This document shows positions 56,637-64,000 of a stretch of 64,000 nt of DNA, one piece after another. The translations under genes were made by a program, and so were the position numbers. The notes under the pieces were generated by a model. The model ran no database searches. It worked only from the letters and a program-made list of their open reading frames with translations, and was not told the DNA's origin. The DNA comes from an uncultured Gammaproteobacteria bacterium (GTDB lineage: Bacteria > Pseudomonadota > Gammaproteobacteria > JAADHQ01). Numbering within the stretch: position 1 is the first letter of the stretch; every line of letters begins with the position of its first letter. The DNA lies in assembly GCA_947258655.1 (NCBI GenBank), contig CAMYJD010000004.1, positions 131,644-195,643 of the forward strand, written 5' to 3'.

Positions 56637-56846
56637 CTATTTTATCCTGTCGAGTAATTCATAGCGCAGTATTTTCATGTTGTAGGGGGCATCGATGGCC
56701 AGTTTGATGGCAGACTGATCCCGGCATTTTACGGCGACTTTTATAGGTCCTTTTGAGAACAATTCACCGACGGTCATCTCCGGTCGAATATCCTCATTGG
56801 GGTATATAAGTATAGACTCGCCAGTCTTTCTTTCTAGCACCAGCAT
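56637..56846 (-). CDS. Divergent CsrA-like RNA-binding regulator
   Basis: A 69-residue protein that starts MLVLERKTGESILI like CsrA/RsmA and ends with APYNMKILRYELLDRIK, keeping the Arg of the RNA-binding site (usual HREE) and the alanine-proline turn. Between these halves the loop is about ten residues longer than in classical CsrA (MTVGELFSKGPIKVAVKCRDQ). It would bind GGA motifs in mRNAs and control translation. A housekeeping CsrA (about 60 residues) is expected elsewhere, so this looks like an accessory paralogue, perhaps tied to the pilin-kinase region next to it. Confidence 0.75.
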   Translation of the reverse strand: MLVLERKTGESILIYPNEDIRPEMTVGELFSKGPIKVAVKCRDQSAIKLAIDAPYNMKILRYELLDRIK

Positions 56847-56963: not shown

Positions 56964-57749
56964 TTATATATTGTTTAGTTCCAATAATGCTTGATGCGCA
57001 GTTTGATAGCGCTTGTTGATATCAACGGATAATATCCTGTTAATAAATTCATGGTAATGACAATCGATTCCGCGCAGTTCCAATGCAGGTGGATTGGCAG
57101 CCAGCGGTAACATGTCTCTGGTAGTGTTAGCATTGTTTCTGCGCATTCCGGTCAGCATCTCATAGAATAGTAGTCCTACCTGATACAGGTCACTTTGCTG
57201 TGTCCATTGCAGACCCTGTGCCTGTTCCGGTGACAGGTAGGCATGTTTGCCGATCCAGGTGTGGGCGGCGTCATTGTATTGCTGAGGTATACAGGCGCAG
57301 CCGAAATCAATCAGGTATACCTGCCCCTGTTTCGATAAGATTATATTGTCTGGGGAAATATCCGAGTGAATGAGCCTGCCGTCACGATCATGCAGGTTAG
57401 ACAGGATGGTCAGGAGTTGACGGATTATGTCCACGCTTTGTGATAGTGATACCGTACCTGCCTTTAATATTTTATCCAGATTGGTACCTTTTATATATTC
57501 ATAGGCGAAATATGGACGCTTAATGTCCACCCGGCTTTTTATCAACGCAAGTGTGTTGCTAGTTTGCAGTGACTGCAGGATTTCTACCTCGCTAATGAAA
57601 CGTGACTTCAATGCCGGTATGTTGCAGTATTCTGGCTTAAGGCTTTTTACGATCAAAGATTTCCTCCCCTTGACAAGAAACAGCTGACAAATACTGCCGT
57701 TAAAAAAAGGGGAAATGTCGACAAGCCCGCTGTACTTTAAATGTCCCAA
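56964..57749 (-). CDS. Ser/Thr protein kinase, non-RD type
   Basis: Soluble Hanks-type kinase. I place the start at TTG 57749 because CAGGAG lies just before it; an ATG at 57791 gives 275 residues and a 55-base overlap. Numbering from that ATG: K49 (LIVKSLK), alpha-C Glu near 70, catalytic loop HSDISPDN (D144) and DFG at 162-164, followed by a Glu of the APE-like region (LSPEQAQG). The glycine-rich loop is degenerate (SPFFNGSICQLFLV), and Ser replaces the Arg of HRD. It is translationally coupled to the Lnt-like gene (13-base overlap). There is no membrane or sensor domain, so its input must come from partners. Confidence 0.85.
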   Translation of the reverse strand: MGHLKYSGLVDISPFFNGSICQLFLVKGRKSLIVKSLKPEYCNIPALKSRFISEVEILQSLQTSNTLALIKSRVDIKRPYFAYEYIKGTNLDKILKAGTVSLSQSVDIIRQLLTILSNLHDRDGRLIHSDISPDNIILSKQGQVYLIDFGCACIPQQYNDAAHTWIGKHAYLSPEQAQGLQWTQQSDLYQVGLLFYEMLTGMRRNNANTTRDMLPLAANPPALELRGIDCHYHEFINRILSVDINKRYQTAHQALLELNNI

Positions 57750-59743
57750 GGCCTGCTCCTGGCAGATAGTGTTAGTGTTTTTCCTGTCCATTTGTGCAGG
57801 AAAGCCTTCGTTTTTACCGAAAGTATTTGGCCGTAATAAGGTGAAAAAAAGATAACACCATTGTCTGTTATATCGGTTATAACAACCGTTTCACCTGTCT
57901 CCAATAGTACAATGCAGGGTGTCTTTATGTGTGTGTGAATGGCAGCGTGGGTGTCTGAGAAATTCTCGCTGGTTGAATCATACCCGAACCTGTCCGTAAT
58001 AGAACTTATATCTATGGCACTTTTGGTAGCGTTACTATCAACGATGATACTGCTTAATTCAGCCCTGATATGCGTCAGATTGACATCATTACCAAGGTCC
58101 CTGAGGAGGTAGGTGATTGCAGAGAGTAGGCTATCGATGGGGGTGTCAACCTTAAGCTGTTGGTACGGTAAGGTATCGTTAATATGTCCGTGCTGAAAAT
58201 TGACAAAGGTATCGGGTAGGTTGTTGCCACTACTGATTTGATAGATATGGCGCATATAATAGTGCTGAAAAACCAGAGCACTGCCCAGCAAGGTAATTGC
58301 ACTCATAATACCTCCGACTCTGAAAGCTTGTCCGGATCGCTGAAAGTGGCATGAGCGTGCACAGCTAGCAAGGAAAATAATAACGGCCACTGATGACAGC
58401 ACCCACAATGCTATCTGTATGTTGCGAAAATGCCTGACAAAAAAAGTCGTAGTATAATTTGCCTGAATACGGGCATGCAAGGTGCCGCTTGTGAACAGAG
58501 CAAGACGTTCCCCGACTCTGCCGTTGGCAGTAATAACTGTCGACGGGCCTGCATTCGCGGCCCGGATAATGGTCTTGCCTGTCTCCACTGCCCTGAGCCT
58601 GGAAAACTGCAGATGTAGATAAGCCAGGATCGATGGTCCGGCATAGGCATCATTGGTGGCCAGAGATATAAAACCTGCGCCAGCAGCAGACAGCATCACA
58701 GCCGGACGTGAAAAAACAGATTCATAACAAATAATGCTGCCGGGACGACCGGGTAATTTATCATGAATACTCCAGTCGTTTTGCCCGTTTGTTTCATCTT
58801 CGATGAAGGGAATCAGGATGTTTTTGTTATATCGATGGAGTACTGTTCCTGATGATGAGAGTGAAAAAACAGAATTATAGGTCTGCCCGGATGCTGACAA
58901 GTCAGGGCTTGCGACCAGTATGGGGATGCCGAATAGCGCGGCCTGTTGACTGATATTGGATTTGTTACGGAACTCGTATTTGCCAATACTGACCTCGGGC
59001 AATATGATCAGTTCGGGTTTAAAACGTTCACTGAAAGCATCTTGTAGAAGGCTTAGGCGCTGATGGGCAAGACTTTCAAGCATATCGTCGGATGCCAATG
59101 CCAGAGTGTTGCGTGGATGAGCATTGGTCTGGACAATGCTAATATCGATAATGTCGCCCTGAGTTTGCGTAGTTCCATTAATTAACGCAGGAAGCAAAAA
59201 CGTTGACGTGATTGCAACCAACGAACTAGCGGGGACCACAATGGACAGTCTTGCATGCTGGCGCTGATGAAGTACAACAATAGTCAGCTGAAATCCTATC
59301 AATAAAATACTGAGCAACTGCTGGCCGCCATATTGGGCTGGCATTAATAATGCCGGTGTAACTGTTAGTGGAATGACCAGTGTCACAGGCAGGTTAAAAT
59401 AGGAGAGCGTTATTTCAATAAATGTCCATAATAAGGGCGCTATCAGGAGTGCGAGTAAATCCCGCCTACTGATGATCAGAAATGTACAAAACAGAAACGT
59501 GGAAAAGAGTAATGAGAAAATGAATACGATCGCGACATAGGCATATATATCATATGTCCAGGTGCCGAAGTAGCTATAGCCTGAAATAATTAGCGCAAAC
59601 ACAAAACCATCCACTGCCACCTGTGTCGGTATATGGCCCTGGCGATTTATTAATAGAGGGACAAGAAAAAAACAGCCAACGAGCGGTATATCGAATGGCG
59701 GTAATGATGCAAGGAATAAAATTGAAGAAAGTACAGGACGCAC
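57737..59743 (-). CDS. Lnt-like nitrilase-family membrane protein with C39-like C-terminal domain
   Basis: A 668-residue protein starting with GTG. Residues 1-200 hold about six membrane helices in the apolipoprotein N-acyltransferase style (LASLPPFDIPLVGCFFLVPLL). The carbon-nitrogen-hydrolase domain (about 205-445) has the full triad: E250 (ILPEVS), K307 (YNKNILIPF) and C339 (ICYES). A further helix near 450-470 and another near 485-505 follow. The last 135 residues (534-668) are not part of Lnt. They resemble a degenerate C39-peptidase-like domain as found on type I secretion ABC transporters: IDSLLSAITYLLRDLG with Ser where Cys would be, PCIVLLETGETVVI and KAFLHKWTGKTL. The housekeeping Lnt is probably elsewhere. 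Fused domain and kinase coupling are unusual. Confidence 0.8.
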   Translation of the reverse strand: MRPVLSSILFLASLPPFDIPLVGCFFLVPLLINRQGHIPTQVAVDGFVFALIISGYSYFGTWTYDIYAYVAIVFIFSLLFSTFLFCTFLIISRRDLLALLIAPLLWTFIEITLSYFNLPVTLVIPLTVTPALLMPAQYGGQQLLSILLIGFQLTIVVLHQRQHARLSIVVPASSLVAITSTFLLPALINGTTQTQGDIIDISIVQTNAHPRNTLALASDDMLESLAHQRLSLLQDAFSERFKPELIILPEVSIGKYEFRNKSNISQQAALFGIPILVASPDLSASGQTYNSVFSLSSSGTVLHRYNKNILIPFIEDETNGQNDWSIHDKLPGRPGSIICYESVFSRPAVMLSAAGAGFISLATNDAYAGPSILAYLHLQFSRLRAVETGKTIIRAANAGPSTVITANGRVGERLALFTSGTLHARIQANYTTTFFVRHFRNIQIALWVLSSVAVIIFLASCARSCHFQRSGQAFRVGGIMSAITLLGSALVFQHYYMRHIYQISSGNNLPDTFVNFQHGHINDTLPYQQLKVDTPIDSLLSAITYLLRDLGNDVNLTHIRAELSSIIVDSNATKSAIDISSITDRFGYDSTSENFSDTHAAIHTHIKTPCIVLLETGETVVITDITDNGVIFFSPYYGQILSVKTKAFLHKWTGKTLTLSARSRPWDI

Positions 59744-59941
59744 GTTAATTAACTATCCCTGTTAAAATCGATGGTAAAGATTATACAGAGCATGATGTAT
59801 TTAAGCCATCCATGCTCACGGAATAAAATTATTCAGAAATCGTTTACTAGGCTTGAAAGTTTTGCTATACATTACACTTGAATGAGGACGAAGATGGATC
59901 ACATTCACATATTACACACACGGAAATAACAGGAGAGTGAA

Positions 59942-60220
59942 ATGAAGCGCATCAAGAATACAAGTTTTGTAGGAAAAATCCGACAACGCGGTCAGGGAAT
60001 GTCTGAGTACCTAATCATCGTTGCTCTGATAGCCGTCGCAGCAATTGGTGTGGTAGGCTTTATGGGAGACACGGTAAGTAACCAGATGGCCAGCATGGCA
60101 ATGGAGATTTCCGGCCAGGACGGAGGCAACGCAACCAAAAATGCGCAGACACAAGCCACTGCTGCCGAGAACAAAGCCAAAACCGGCAAGACAATGGCAA
60201 ACTTCTCTTCTGCTAACTAG
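59942..60220 (+). CDS. Flp-like (class III) prepilin
   Basis: A 92-residue prepilin. The basic leader (17 residues, ending RQRG) is followed by G^QGMSEY, the G-xxxx-E-Y cleavage pattern of Flp/class III prepilins with Glu at +5 and Tyr at +6, and a hydrophobic stretch (LIIVALIAVAAIGVVGFMG). The mature tail is polar, Ala/Lys/Gln-rich and lacks Cys. It has a strong AGGAGA ribosome binding site and is the first gene of the plus-strand operon. A large hairpin after it may set a high pilin-to-downstream ratio. No prepilin peptidase, TadA ATPase or secretin gene lies in the window. Confidence 0.85.
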   Translation: MKRIKNTSFVGKIRQRGQGMSEYLIIVALIAVAAIGVVGFMGDTVSNQMASMAMEISGQDGGNATKNAQTQATAAENKAKTGKTMANFSSAN

Positions 60221-60236
60221 CCAGCTCCATAAATGA

Positions 60237-60279
60237 ATGCGTAATCACCCGGTTATCTCATAAACCGGTGGTTACGCAT
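60237..60279 (+). terminator. Strong hairpin after pilin gene
   Basis: ATGCGTAATCACCCGGTT and AACCGGTGGTTACGCAT form a stem of about 16 pairs with a bulged C, around TATCTCAT. No T-tract follows, so it may attenuate or stabilise the pilin mRNA rather than end it. Downstream genes are therefore probably read at lower level. Confidence 0.65.
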
Positions 60280-60322
60280 CAGCAATGGTCAATGCATAGT
60301 ATTGACAGGGAAGGTTTGCGTC

Positions 60323-61531
60323 ATGAAAAAATACGGAACTATACTTTACCATCGCCAAAAAGGGCAGGCGCTGGTGCTTGGAGTATTTCTGGTTCTGACA
60401 ACGGTCATGACGGCGGTTTTGATGTACAACAATGGCCAGACGACTTCCGAAAAGAGCCGTCTGGTTAATGCCGCCGATGCCGCGGCCTACAGTGGTGCAG
60501 TGTTTGTTGCCAGAAACCTCAATTTTCTCGCCTATACCAATCGAGCCATGATAGCCAATCATGTGGCGGTTGGGCACTTTGTCAGTTATGTGTCATGGAT
60601 CAGATATGTTGAGGATTCCATTACAGAACTTGATAAATATACCAGATTTGTCCCGTACGTCGGCCAGGCAGTGGCATATGCCAAGCAAATTATGGAATAT
60701 GTAAAAGAAGGTACAGAAACGGTAGCGCCATGGATTGTGAAAGGGGCAGATTCAATAAACAGGATAATACATATCGCCCAAAATAAAAGTCGCGCAACAA
60801 TAAACGGAGTGATGTCAGTCACCAGTGGCGTGCTCAATGTTAGGATTATGGATAAGGTTGCCAAAACATATGATCCAGCAATTCGAGTTAATTATAAGAA
60901 AGATGTCAATACAACCGGTGGTAAGATAGCCGCTCTTCAGGTGACAACAGACATCGCTAAAATTTTTCAATATGTAAAAGGATATACAGCAAAAAATGAT
61001 AAAGGTCGGCTAAAGAAGATGGTTGAAAGTAGCTATAATGTCTCTAAACCATGGATTGAAGGAAACCGTGGCTGGGGTGTCAATCTGGTGGCATTCAAGC
61101 TGAATAAGGATGGTAGTACCAAACATACTTTGTCAAAGAATAAAACCGATTGGGAAGCCCAGGATACATTGGTCTATAAGTGGTGGACAGTAAAGGGTTG
61201 GAAGAGTACGGTCGTCGCAGAGGGTGATGCCAGTGCAAGCGAATTCGATAGTAAATACAAGGGCATCTATGGTTACCATGGTCTGAGGAAGCAGGGCAAA
61301 GAGTCAGCTCAGATACTGAATGTATCAGCGCTGGCAACGATGCCTGTATCTAGTACACGTTTTATGCAATTAATGGGTATGAAGCCGGGGGCGCAACGCC
61401 TTGCAGCATTATCCCGTGCGGAAGTATTTCACAACAGGCCAGAGAAGGGATTTGTCAAAATTACTAAGGGAGAATATTCGAATCTGTATAACCCGTTCTG
61501 GCAGGTAAGGTTGACCAAGAATCAAATATGA
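60323..61531 (+). CDS. TadG-like pilus-assembly (Tad) protein
   Basis: A 402-residue protein from the ATG at 60323 (GGGAAGG nine bases upstream); a TTG at 60302 is an alternative. The N-terminus has KGQALVLGVFLVLTTVMTAVLMYNNG, the single helix of Tad/TadG-like proteins, then NAADAAAYSGAVFVARNLNFLAY, the conserved start of the exported part. There is no Glu at +5 after G14, so prepilin processing is uncertain. The rest is polar with Trp-rich stretches and no clear VWA MIDAS. Overlaps the next gene by four bases. Confidence 0.78.
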   Translation: MKKYGTILYHRQKGQALVLGVFLVLTTVMTAVLMYNNGQTTSEKSRLVNAADAAAYSGAVFVARNLNFLAYTNRAMIANHVAVGHFVSYVSWIRYVEDSITELDKYTRFVPYVGQAVAYAKQIMEYVKEGTETVAPWIVKGADSINRIIHIAQNKSRATINGVMSVTSGVLNVRIMDKVAKTYDPAIRVNYKKDVNTTGGKIAALQVTTDIAKIFQYVKGYTAKNDKGRLKKMVESSYNVSKPWIEGNRGWGVNLVAFKLNKDGSTKHTLSKNKTDWEAQDTLVYKWWTVKGWKSTVVAEGDASASEFDSKYKGIYGYHGLRKQGKESAQILNVSALATMPVSSTRFMQLMGMKPGAQRLAALSRAEVFHNRPEKGFVKITKGEYSNLYNPFWQVRLTKNQI

Positions 61532-62418
61532 TGGAGTTCAATCACGTTATTTTATGGATCAGCAAGTTATCTGTACTGACTGTTTTATTTTCATCCACAC
61601 AGATACTTGCGAAGACCTGTCCAGGTAATGATATGCCGAAAACAGTTCAAGCGGTCTACGTAAAATACAAGATCACTGACGAGGTATATATAAAACTTAA
61701 TAAACAGTGGGGGGCGCCTTCCAATGTTGTGGGGGATGAATTGAAAGAGCTCATTCTGTGGAAGAATTACCGATGGAAACGCAGATTCGGAAAATACTGG
61801 AGCACCGATGATGAGAAGGAGGTAAAATATCAGGATGCGCATTTAAAGAAATGGGAGAGTATTGAACTACGGCAATCTAAAGGTGTAGAAGTACCTATGG
61901 ATGAAATAGATAAGCTGGCGATTGAGTATATGAACCATAGGCCAGAACAAAAAGTCTACGAATATGACTGGATTGATGTCGATACCCCTGAGTATTCATT
62001 GTACTACAACAGGTCTAATGAAAAAGGCTATGGTGTGTTGGGCCGTCAATTAACTAAATCAGATAGGAAGCGTCTGGACAAACGGACCAGGTCACAGCTT
62101 GATAACTGGTTGGGCTCAAATTATAAAGATACAAAAAAGATATTAGGAATCGAAAAAATATCAAAAAGGAAATCAAAAATACTGGGATATGACGTGGTCT
62201 GCGAGACGATCAGGACCAGTGTTAAGGACTTTTCGCGAACTAATGATCAGATAGAATTCTGTAAGGCTAATATCTCCGGTTTCGAAGTAGATCTGTATAG
62301 TAAGGCAGGAAAAACAGGGCAACAACATATCATGCAAGCTGTAGAGGTAAATACAGCGTACAGCGTAAATAAAGATATATTTTGTGCTCCAGGCTATGTG
62401 AAGTTGAGAACACCCTGA
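61528..62418 (+). CDS. Secreted protein of unknown function in pilin operon
   Basis: A 296-residue exported protein with signal peptide (hydrophobic LSVLTVLFSSTQ, cleavage near ILA-KT). The mature part is highly charged and Lys/Tyr/Trp-rich, with Cys in TCPGND, VVCET, EFCKAN and DIFCAP, probably forming two disulfides. The last 75 residues recur in the shortened ORF at 62594. Its start overlaps the TadG-like stop. No family recognised. Confidence 0.72.
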   Translation: MMEFNHVILWISKLSVLTVLFSSTQILAKTCPGNDMPKTVQAVYVKYKITDEVYIKLNKQWGAPSNVVGDELKELILWKNYRWKRRFGKYWSTDDEKEVKYQDAHLKKWESIELRQSKGVEVPMDEIDKLAIEYMNHRPEQKVYEYDWIDVDTPEYSLYYNRSNEKGYGVLGRQLTKSDRKRLDKRTRSQLDNWLGSNYKDTKKILGIEKISKRKSKILGYDVVCETIRTSVKDFSRTNDQIEFCKANISGFEVDLYSKAGKTGQQHIMQAVEVNTAYSVNKDIFCAPGYVKLRTP

Positions 62419-62593
62419 TGCAATATGTTTATAGATATTGTATCGACAATCCTGTATCTAATAAAACTGTGTATGGATATGCAATAGTCAAAATTGTCGT
62501 AACTGCAATAAATAAAGATACATCAGTCAAGCAAATCACGGCTTGATACATGGAAAATAATTATTTTATAGACGCCTGCAAGATAATTAGGTT

Positions 62594-62860
62594 TTGATAA
62601 TTTACTGCAGAAAAACCAGGACGTCGGGTAATGATGTCACGTATGAAATGGTCGAGACAAGATTATATGGTGCCCTGAGAAAATATGGACAGATGAAGGT
62701 ATGTATGGAAAATATAACTGGTACCGAAGCAAATTTGTATGGAGGGATGGGCAAACTCGGAGAGCGCTCTATTGTCCAGGCTATAGAGGTCAATTCGGCG
62801 TGTCCAGTTAGAAGAGATATCTTTTGTTACCCGCACTATGTAAAAACGGGGTTATCCTGA
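62594..62860 (+). pseudogene. Shortened paralogue of the upstream secreted protein
   Basis: An 88-codon frame with similarity to the last 75 residues of the preceding gene: ENITGTEANLYGGMGKLGERS against KANISGFEVDLYSKAGKTGQQ, and AIEVNSACPVRRDIFC against AVEVNTAYSVNKDIFC. It lacks a signal peptide and the N-terminal two thirds. The start would be TTG at 62594 without a clear ribosome binding site. The 175 bases before it hold no coding remnant. It is either a gene fragment left by tandem duplication or a truncated but translated domain. Confidence 0.65.
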
Positions 62861-62872
62861 TGGAGGCTGCAA

Positions 62873-63814
62873 ATGGATTTTGCTTATAAACATAAACGAC
62901 TATCCAGACGCAAAGCGTCAGGTACCGCTACCACTGAGTTCCTGGTGTCACTGGCATTCTTCGTACCACTCTTTGTTACTGTGCCTGTTATTGGGAAATA
63001 TATATCGTTCAAGCAGAAAAACATAGAATCAAACAGATATGCTGTCTGGGAAAGAACGGTCTGGGCAGATGAACAAGGACGTTGGAACGATAACGAAAAT
63101 ACCAAATCGGATGATGGCATAGCCAGGGAAGTCGACAGGCGTCTATATGGTAGCCAGATTCAGGGATTGTCCAGTTCTAGTATTACCGACAATAACATGT
63201 GGTCAGATAGAAATAGTGAAAGAATGCTTGCCCTGGCAACCAAGGGCAAACATCGAATAACTGTTTCCCTGAATGCCGATGTATCACCAGTAAAAGATCA
63301 CTTTACGGATAATCTGGCCTATAAAGGTATTCCTTATATTGGCGACGGGATGAGTAAGATCACCGAAGTGGTCAATAGTACCCTGGGTAATTTTGTATCG
63401 GATTGCAAGGATATACCAGGTGTCGATTTGAAAAAAGGCATGAATCTGGGCTCAAAAACATATGCCTCCATTACTGTCTCGGCAAATGCAAAGAATATAC
63501 TTCCTTCTGTTAACAATGGTGATTCGCAAATAATATTAATTGAGAACGAGAAAGAGCCAAAAACCACGATTGAAGATAAAAAACACTTTACGTTTTCATC
63601 CAGTGGTTCAATATTGTCAAATGCATGGACTGCCCCAACAGAAGCCATCTTCAACGAACGGGTTGGTAAGCTGGTTGTTGACGAATCAGTACGATGTATT
63701 TCCTCGCCGGCACGTCTGTTATCGCTATTTCCGATATACAAGGAAGGGAACGATGCAAAGAATGTTGTATCGGCCGAAAAGAGTACAATATTGCTTGAGA
63801 CATATAAAAAATGA
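62873..63814 (+). CDS. TadE-like pseudopilin
   Basis: A 313-residue protein with GGAGG six bases before the ATG. Basic leader of 17 residues ending KASG, then G^TATTEF (Glu at +5, Phe at +6) and the helix LVSLAFFVPLFVTVPVIG, the TadE pattern and the same G-xxxx-E spacing as the pilin at 59942. Both cut sites fall after residue 17, suggesting one peptidase handles both. The remaining 260 residues are polar and exported. The stop overlaps the next gene (ATGA). Confidence 0.8.
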   Translation: MDFAYKHKRLSRRKASGTATTEFLVSLAFFVPLFVTVPVIGKYISFKQKNIESNRYAVWERTVWADEQGRWNDNENTKSDDGIAREVDRRLYGSQIQGLSSSSITDNNMWSDRNSERMLALATKGKHRITVSLNADVSPVKDHFTDNLAYKGIPYIGDGMSKITEVVNSTLGNFVSDCKDIPGVDLKKGMNLGSKTYASITVSANAKNILPSVNNGDSQIILIENEKEPKTTIEDKKHFTFSSSGSILSNAWTAPTEAIFNERVGKLVVDESVRCISSPARLLSLFPIYKEGNDAKNVVSAEKSTILLETYKK

Positions 63815-64000
63815 ATAGCAGACTAATAATTAGTGGTTTTCTGTCGTTCATGCTGGTGACACTTTCAGCTCAGGCAGAAGATCTGTCCGGGCTTCATATG
63901 CCGGAATTTGAAACGATGCCGGGAATGAAAGTTGAATGGGTCGCAGAAAAGATGATTTACAACGGCCATCCGATGACGATACGGAATTTTAGTTCCAACA
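63811..64000 (+). CDS. Secreted protein, N-terminal part (cut by window end)
   Basis: At least 63 codons, running off the window. A clean signal peptide (IISGFLSFMLVTLSAQA) is followed by EDLSGLHMPEFETMPGMKVE and KMIYNGHPMTIRNF. Its ATG overlaps the TadE-like stop, so it belongs to the same operon. The family is not identified. Confidence 0.75.
   Translation, partial: MNSRLIISGFLSFMLVTLSAQAEDLSGLHMPEFETMPGMKVEWVAEKMIYNGHPMTIRNFSSN

Follow-up and report, generated by a model that had tools for sequence, protein, structure and literature searches.

Gene content of the locus

The 64,000-nucleotide stretch of DNA analysed here (the window) corresponds to G000:C4:131644-195643 of an uncultured Gammaproteobacteria genome (3.48 Mb in 92 contigs), whose host is described as a marine-type bacterium. 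At the end of the window, two sets of genes diverge: on the minus strand, the genes for a Ser/Thr kinase and for a paralogue of the apolipoprotein N-acyltransferase Lnt with an added C39-like domain (hereafter Lnt-C39), and on the plus strand, the genes for a Flp-like pilin, a TadG-like protein and further exported proteins (Table 1). Based on the sequence alone, this region had been proposed as a candidate undescribed system, one reading being that the assembly or the acylation of an envelope structure is switched by phosphorylation (hereafter the original prediction).

Table 1. Features at the divergent kinase-Lnt/pilin region (window coordinates unless marked L002)
Feature	Position	Strand	Basis
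Non-RD Ser/Thr kinase, soluble	56964..57749	-	Pfam Pkinase 101 bits; longest open reading frame starts at 57791
Lnt paralogue with C39-like domain (Lnt-C39)	57737..59743	-	Pfam, NCBIfam and PDB matches; hydropathy
Divergent intergenic region, 198 nt, lnt-C39/pilin gene	59744..59941		Gene coordinates
Flp-like major pilin, G17/QGMSE cleavage site	59942..60220	+	Flp_Fap E 3e-4, below cutoff; position conserved in the genus and relatives
TadG-like protein, N-terminal Tad domain	60302..61531	+	PF13400 32 bits, cutoff 22
orf5, exported Cys-containing protein	61528..62418	+	Homologue present in the loci of G003 and G080; no Pfam match above cutoff
orf5 C-terminal region, partial duplicate	62594..62860	+	phmmer E 8e-17 to orf5
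orf7, TadE-like pseudopilin, G17/TATTE cleavage site, one transmembrane segment	62873..63814	+	Sequence, hydropathy; orthologues in most FHA-TadA loci
orf8 start (230 aa, exported)	63811..64000, whole at L002:10455-11147	+	Orthologues in most FHA-TadA loci

The contig extends 9.3 kb beyond the window, and the genes following position 64000 encode, in this order, orf8, CpaB/RcpC, a secretin, TadA, TadB, TadC, a DUF192 protein, a protein with an FHA domain, a transmembrane (TM) segment and a TPR-like part (FHA-TM-TPR), a TadD-like TPR lipoprotein and TadE, with CpaB, secretin, TadA, TadB and TadC in sequence at L002:11330-16932. As the operon continues with CpaB, secretin, TadA, TadB, TadC, TadD and TadE, the plus-strand half is a Tad locus; a Flp-like pilin with a G-xxxx-E site and Tad-domain and TadE proteins are likewise present, though the Flp_Fap score of the pilin is below the Pfam cutoff. 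Of the genes that the original prediction had looked for past the window, TadA, TadB, TadC and a secretin do follow, whereas the prepilin peptidase gene does not; Peptidase_A24, a candidate prepilin peptidase, is encoded elsewhere in 11/11 kinase-positive genomes searched. TadZ is often present between secretin and TadA in Tad loci, although it is not strictly defining. Here these two genes lie 9 bp apart with no open reading frame between them, and TadZ was not sought in the rest of the genome. The TadA of the locus carries an N-terminal FHA domain, and the FHA-TM-TPR protein combines an FHA domain and one TM segment with a C-terminal part that is TPR-like by pattern only.

The smaller details of the original prediction on this strand were confirmed, namely the TadG-like protein (PF13400 above cutoff), the secreted protein with a signal-peptide-like start and several cysteines (orf5) and two predicted cleavage sites that follow the G-xxxx-E rule after residue 17, QRG/QGMSE in the pilin and ASG/TATTE in orf7. 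The 198-nt intergenic region presumably holds both divergent promoters; a promoter scan of it returned nothing above chance.

A csrA-like gene (56637-56846, minus strand) lies directly downstream of the kinase gene on the same strand, as also in G001 and G003 and not in G002, and a regulatory link is possible. The TadE of the source genome is cut by the contig end. Two TadE copies (G000:C4:204575-204925 and G000:C46:1-585, L170) break at the same residue at contig ends, which suggests that both are followed by a long, nearly identical repeat left unresolved in the assembly. In addition, repetitive ARSPATTRSPKP-like peptides are encoded at the start of the tadE open reading frame (L002:19411-19590); a short repeat element probably lies within tadE or immediately before it. 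The genome G003 also has a second Tad-type locus (L130, G003:C8:5000-24999), whose TadA has no FHA domain and which lies near a Peptidase_A24 gene of its own.

The kinase and the Lnt paralogue

The minus-strand kinase matches Pfam Pkinase with an E-value of 8e-29, and all Hanks-type residues are present (VAIK Lys, alpha-C Glu, catalytic Asp and Asn, DFG Asp). In the alignment of the four genus species (4/4), K49, E68, H142-S-D144, N149 and D162-F-G are invariant, and HSD replaces HRD, which makes the protein a non-RD kinase, as originally predicted. Because the catalytic residues are kept in all four species, the kinase looks catalytically active. Its most likely start is TTG 57749 rather than ATG 57791, since a Shine-Dalgarno-like AGGAG lies just upstream and the G003 gene has an ATG at the matching residue. 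With this start, a correction to the original prediction, the kinase gene overlaps the 3' end of the Lnt gene by 13 nt. The kinase subfamily is sharply bounded: 11/370 genomes of the class score at least 222 bits, the next best match has 163 bits, and a phylum-wide search of 399 genomes returned no further member.

Lnt-C39 scores 152 bits against the NCBIfam lnt model (equivalog cutoff 133), exceeds the Pfam cutoffs for CN_hydrolase, LNT_N and Peptidase_C39, and has Lnt structures as its best PDB matches (E about 1e-28). An N-terminal TM region is followed by CN_hydrolase (~228-432), two more TM segments and the C39-like domain (~537-662), and the triad E250-K307-C339, together with E315 and E341, is invariant in seven aligned members. 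Thus, Lnt-C39 resembles Lnt in its LNT_N and CN_hydrolase domains and its catalytic triad, and differs in being a second copy in the genome, in an extra TM segment (by hydropathy) and in the added C39-like domain. The second Lnt-like gene of the source genome, on contig C26, is presumably the housekeeping Lnt.

The extra C39-like domain named in the original prediction is present, with one correction. The Peptidase_C39 cutoff is exceeded by the domain of the window protein and by that of G212, yet the catalytic residues are missing: among the aligned members, read by eye, the Cys position is Ser, Ala, Pro or Gly, and His and Asp are replaced. By the catalytic Cys-His-Asp/Asn test the domain is, on its sequence, a pseudo-protease and not a C39 peptidase. 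HlyB-type exporters also carry a C39-like domain without catalytic residues. No solved structure was matched with the C39-like profile, and the sequences of the weak profile matches in other genomes read as type I secretion ABC transporters. As hydropathy places two TM segments after CN_hydrolase, the C39-like domain should be periplasmic; this topology rests on hydropathy alone, an AlphaFold2 model from four sequences having a mean pLDDT (predicted local distance difference test) of 36. The role of Lnt-C39 is uncertain, with TadD as the most economical guess for a lipoprotein substrate. A kinase-less FHA-TadA locus in G344 has an Lnt-like gene (627 aa, L127:5783-7666) between tadD and the pilin gene, possibly a separate link between Lnt and Tad.

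The kinase, mostly with Lnt-C39, recurs beside Tad genes in seven families

FHA-TadA proteins were searched across 370 Gammaproteobacteria and their gene neighbourhoods were read; the family counts given here are based on the family codes of the sampled genomes. The kinase-Lnt pair was found beside Tad genes in 4/4 genus species examined, as well as in five further families. The three other genus members G001, G002 and G003, which are metagenome-assembled genomes of Gammaproteobacteria (one labelled HyVt-415), carry this pair as well, in divergent orientation to the corresponding pilin and TadG-like genes. A contig scan for Lnt-C39 with genus-specific patterns matched only these three, and the wider reach comes from the TadA search. 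The pair also adjoins Tad genes in the FHA-TadA neighbourhoods of G058, G080 and G137, and a second search with the C39-like region of Lnt-C39 added it in G212 and G066, both already known to have FHA-TadA; in G066 the orientation changes. In G235 the pair is split over two contigs, the start of the Lnt-C39 gene lying by the TadG-like gene on C33 and its end, then the kinase gene, on C65. A seventh family is represented by G013, where the kinase gene alone is divergent from the pilin gene at a contig end. Overall, the locus is present in 10/11 genomes with a kinase of the subfamily; RD kinases that do not belong to it occur near L110, L113 and L120 and were left out of the counts.

TadA identity across the seven families is only about 50-60%. 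Where the other three species have csrA beyond the kinase, G002 has a different gene and the pair still stays with Tad, and because this far flank differs, the link is not merely an unbroken chromosome region. Taken together, the recurrent linkage across seven families provides good support that the two divergent halves belong together. Against the scenario of divergent halves that never co-occur in other genomes, raised with the original prediction, the linkage is thus recurrent, and of its other scenario, an ordinary Tad locus with an unrelated kinase side, the Tad locus is real and the kinase side is related to it.

FHA motifs co-occur with the kinase

Three motifs, G-R, S-R-x-H and N-G, allow FHA domains to recognise phosphothreonine. 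Among 33 full-length FHA-TadA proteins, S-[KR]-x-H and S-[TR]-N-G were both intact in 10/10 from kinase-positive loci and in 0/23 from kinase-negative loci (Fisher test about 1e-8, which ignores the relatedness of the loci). In G235, the Tad contig ends early, and the motifs were read as intact while its kinase status was unknown; a kinase of the subfamily was found later. The FHA-TM-TPR protein was detected in kinase-positive loci only, with intact motifs in most.

In addition, a PP2C phosphatase gene lies between tadD and tadE in G013 and adjoins tadD in G235. The source genome has three PP2C hits near, beside or in-frame with three other kinases, and since these go with other kinases, a phosphatase acting on the Tad kinase would work in trans there.

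TadE-headed toxin-like proteins

At the end of the G003 locus, TadE is extended by a PT-HINT domain and then by another C-terminal part (L027:7410-9602), and in the kinase-negative genome G039 a 1799-aa TadE-DUF6531-Rhs protein follows TadD within the Tad locus (L173:5549-10948). TadE-Rhs proteins with a Tle1-like lipase domain are encoded elsewhere in the genomes of G080 (L168:3969-9698) and G058 (L169:2280-7931), and in G058 the C-terminal cassettes repeat, alternating with small lipoprotein-like genes (L169:897-2316). Repeated cassettes alternating with small genes are the layout of polymorphic toxin/immunity arrays. The TadE-headed large proteins are candidate Tad-delivered polymorphic toxins, a hint of toxin delivery that is kept apart from the case for the locus itself. 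A plasmid search with the TadE-Rhs head gave no match, and the part of the 2012 polymorphic-toxin survey text available to us does not mention pilins (PMC3482391). If functional, such fusions would be a toxin-display route that was not found in the open-access literature searched.

A proposed phosphorylation-gated Tad apparatus

These results suggest a model, to which we assign a probability of roughly 60%, in which one end of a Tad (type IVc pilus) locus lies here, together with a Ser/Thr phospho-signalling module dedicated to it, giving a kinase/FHA-gated apparatus. As the kinase/FHA/Lnt package recurs in seven families, the machine is probably switched by phosphorylation. In the scheme we infer, the soluble kinase would phosphorylate a threonine on a machine component, and two FHA domains would bind the phosphothreonine, that of TadA and, in most members, the cytoplasmic one of the FHA-TPR protein. 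Binding would then recruit or activate TadA at the envelope, such that the filament is assembled only on signal, and a PP2C phosphatase, encoded in the locus in two relatives and otherwise presumably in trans, would reset the switch. Lnt-C39 shares its expression with the kinase through the gene overlap. The reaction that defines Lnt is the N-acylation of a diacylated lipoprotein, and the substrate of Lnt-C39 is probably one of the lipoproteins of the apparatus, with TadD as the obvious candidate; its dead periplasmic C39-like domain may serve as a substrate-holding module. The switch of the original prediction is therefore plausible for assembly, in view of FHA-TadA, FHA-TM-TPR and the PP2C genes of two relatives; that acylation is switched as well found no evidence.

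The phosphorylation gate is reasoned from these genes and has one successful prediction, that of the kinase in G235. Several observations weigh against the model. Twenty-two of the 23 kinase-negative TadA proteins form one clade (Shimodaira-Hasegawa-like approximate likelihood ratio test, SH-aLRT, 100), and as they fall mostly in a single clade, the match between motifs and kinase, although strongly consistent, represents few independent events. In the intact-motif TadA proteins, Lys or Ser stands in place of the G-R arginine of the FHA pocket, so that two of the three motifs are kept and one is altered. In G001 the motifs of the FHA-TPR protein have degenerated, and in G066 and G080 they are incomplete. 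The eleventh kinase of the subfamily, in G116, has no Tad genes nearby; Lnt-C39 was not found in the G013 genome; the catalytic Lys of the G066 Lnt-C39 is, read by eye, apparently Gln; and no phosphatase was seen in the genus's own locus.

Some of these points also fit a different explanation, in which the kinase and Lnt-C39 form a separate envelope or lipoprotein-modification pair that has merely remained next to Tad within a single lineage, with a TadA FHA domain that is structural or read by other kinases. The kinase-positive TadA proteins are neighbours in the tree, the G116 kinase occurs without Tad genes, and the source genome itself encodes three other Pkinase genes and 14 FHA hits, so other partners exist. 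We nevertheless consider such a separate pair rather improbable, given adjacency in seven families whose TadA proteins are so divergent, the changed orientation in G066, the different flank in G002 and the decay of FHA motifs where the kinase is absent. Acylation by Lnt-C39 of the processed N-terminus of the Flp pilin or of pseudopilins, yielding lipidated pili, could be imagined from the divergence of lnt-C39 from the pilin gene in most loci and from the established acylation of alpha-amines by Lnt enzymes. By established topology, prepilin cleavage leaves the amine cytoplasmic while the Lnt active site is periplasmic, and on this ground we rejected pilin acylation as highly implausible.

The toxin-like proteins raise a further explanation, that of a contact-dependent toxin-delivery Tad apparatus in which TadE-like pseudopilins head Rhs/HINT toxins and the kinase/FHA module is the trigger, as PpkA-Fha-PppA is for some type VI systems. 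We regard it as unlikely. It draws on the TadE-PT-HINT protein ending the G003 locus, the TadE-DUF6531-Rhs protein directly after TadD in G039, the lipase-bearing TadE-Rhs proteins of G058 and G080, the cassette repeats at the C-terminus in G058 and the fact that FHA-KilF belongs to a killing apparatus in Myxococcus. However, the toxin-like genes of G058 and G080 lie away from the Tad locus, TadE is of ordinary size in G066, G013 and G212, and that of the window's genome is cut by the contig end; moreover, G039 is kinase-negative, and the toxin link is thus not specific to the kinase. A combined version, in which a phosphorylation-gated Tad apparatus would deliver TadE-headed Rhs/HINT toxins to neighbours, with a dedicated acyltransferase finishing its lipoproteins, much as in kinase-gated type VI attack but with Tad as the machine, is an idea that we hold as doubtful.

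Comparison with known systems

The locus shares with the Tad/Flp loci (Aggregatibacter tad, Caulobacter cpa) a Flp-like pilin, a Tad-domain protein, CpaB/RcpC, secretin, TadA, TadB, TadC, a TadD-like protein and TadE. It differs from them in the FHA domain on TadA, the FHA-TM-TPR protein, the divergent kinase and the second Lnt, as well as in having no open reading frame at the site between secretin and TadA that TadZ often occupies, and a prepilin peptidase encoded elsewhere.

The FHA-ATPase fusion itself is shared with class III CpaF, reported as mostly betaproteobacterial, in which an N-terminal FHA domain is fused to the Tad motor ATPase and for which no kinase partner is named (PMC12019362); in our sample, intact FHA motifs are confined to genomes with the kinase subfamily. 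Similarly, the Kil apparatus of Myxococcus xanthus, defined in part by assembly at prey contact and by prey killing, has an FHA-KilF ATPase and further FHA proteins, and a signalling cascade was suggested with no kinase named (PMC8460266). TadG and TadD are reported to be missing from Kil (PMC8460266), unlike in the present locus with its TadG-like and TadD-like genes. Judged by its genes, the locus may work like Kil, although by the definition in that study it is not a Kil system.

The claim of an undescribed system is accordingly not supported in the strong sense, since the locus is a Tad locus and FHA-TadA/CpaF is published (PMC12019362, PMC8460266); a kinase-linked or Lnt-linked Tad locus was not found in the open-access papers searched. 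FHA domains on Tad motor ATPases being already published, this locus adds a kinase and two FHA proteins, with a phosphatase in two relatives, encoded with the machine, and the switching of FHA-type Tad machines thereby becomes directly testable with defined genes. In the PpkA-Fha-PppA switch of type VI secretion, a Ser/Thr kinase, an FHA reader and a PP2C-type phosphatase are encoded with the secretion machine. The same kinase/FHA/PP2C kit is encountered here, with Tad as the machine and with PP2C in the locus in two relatives only.

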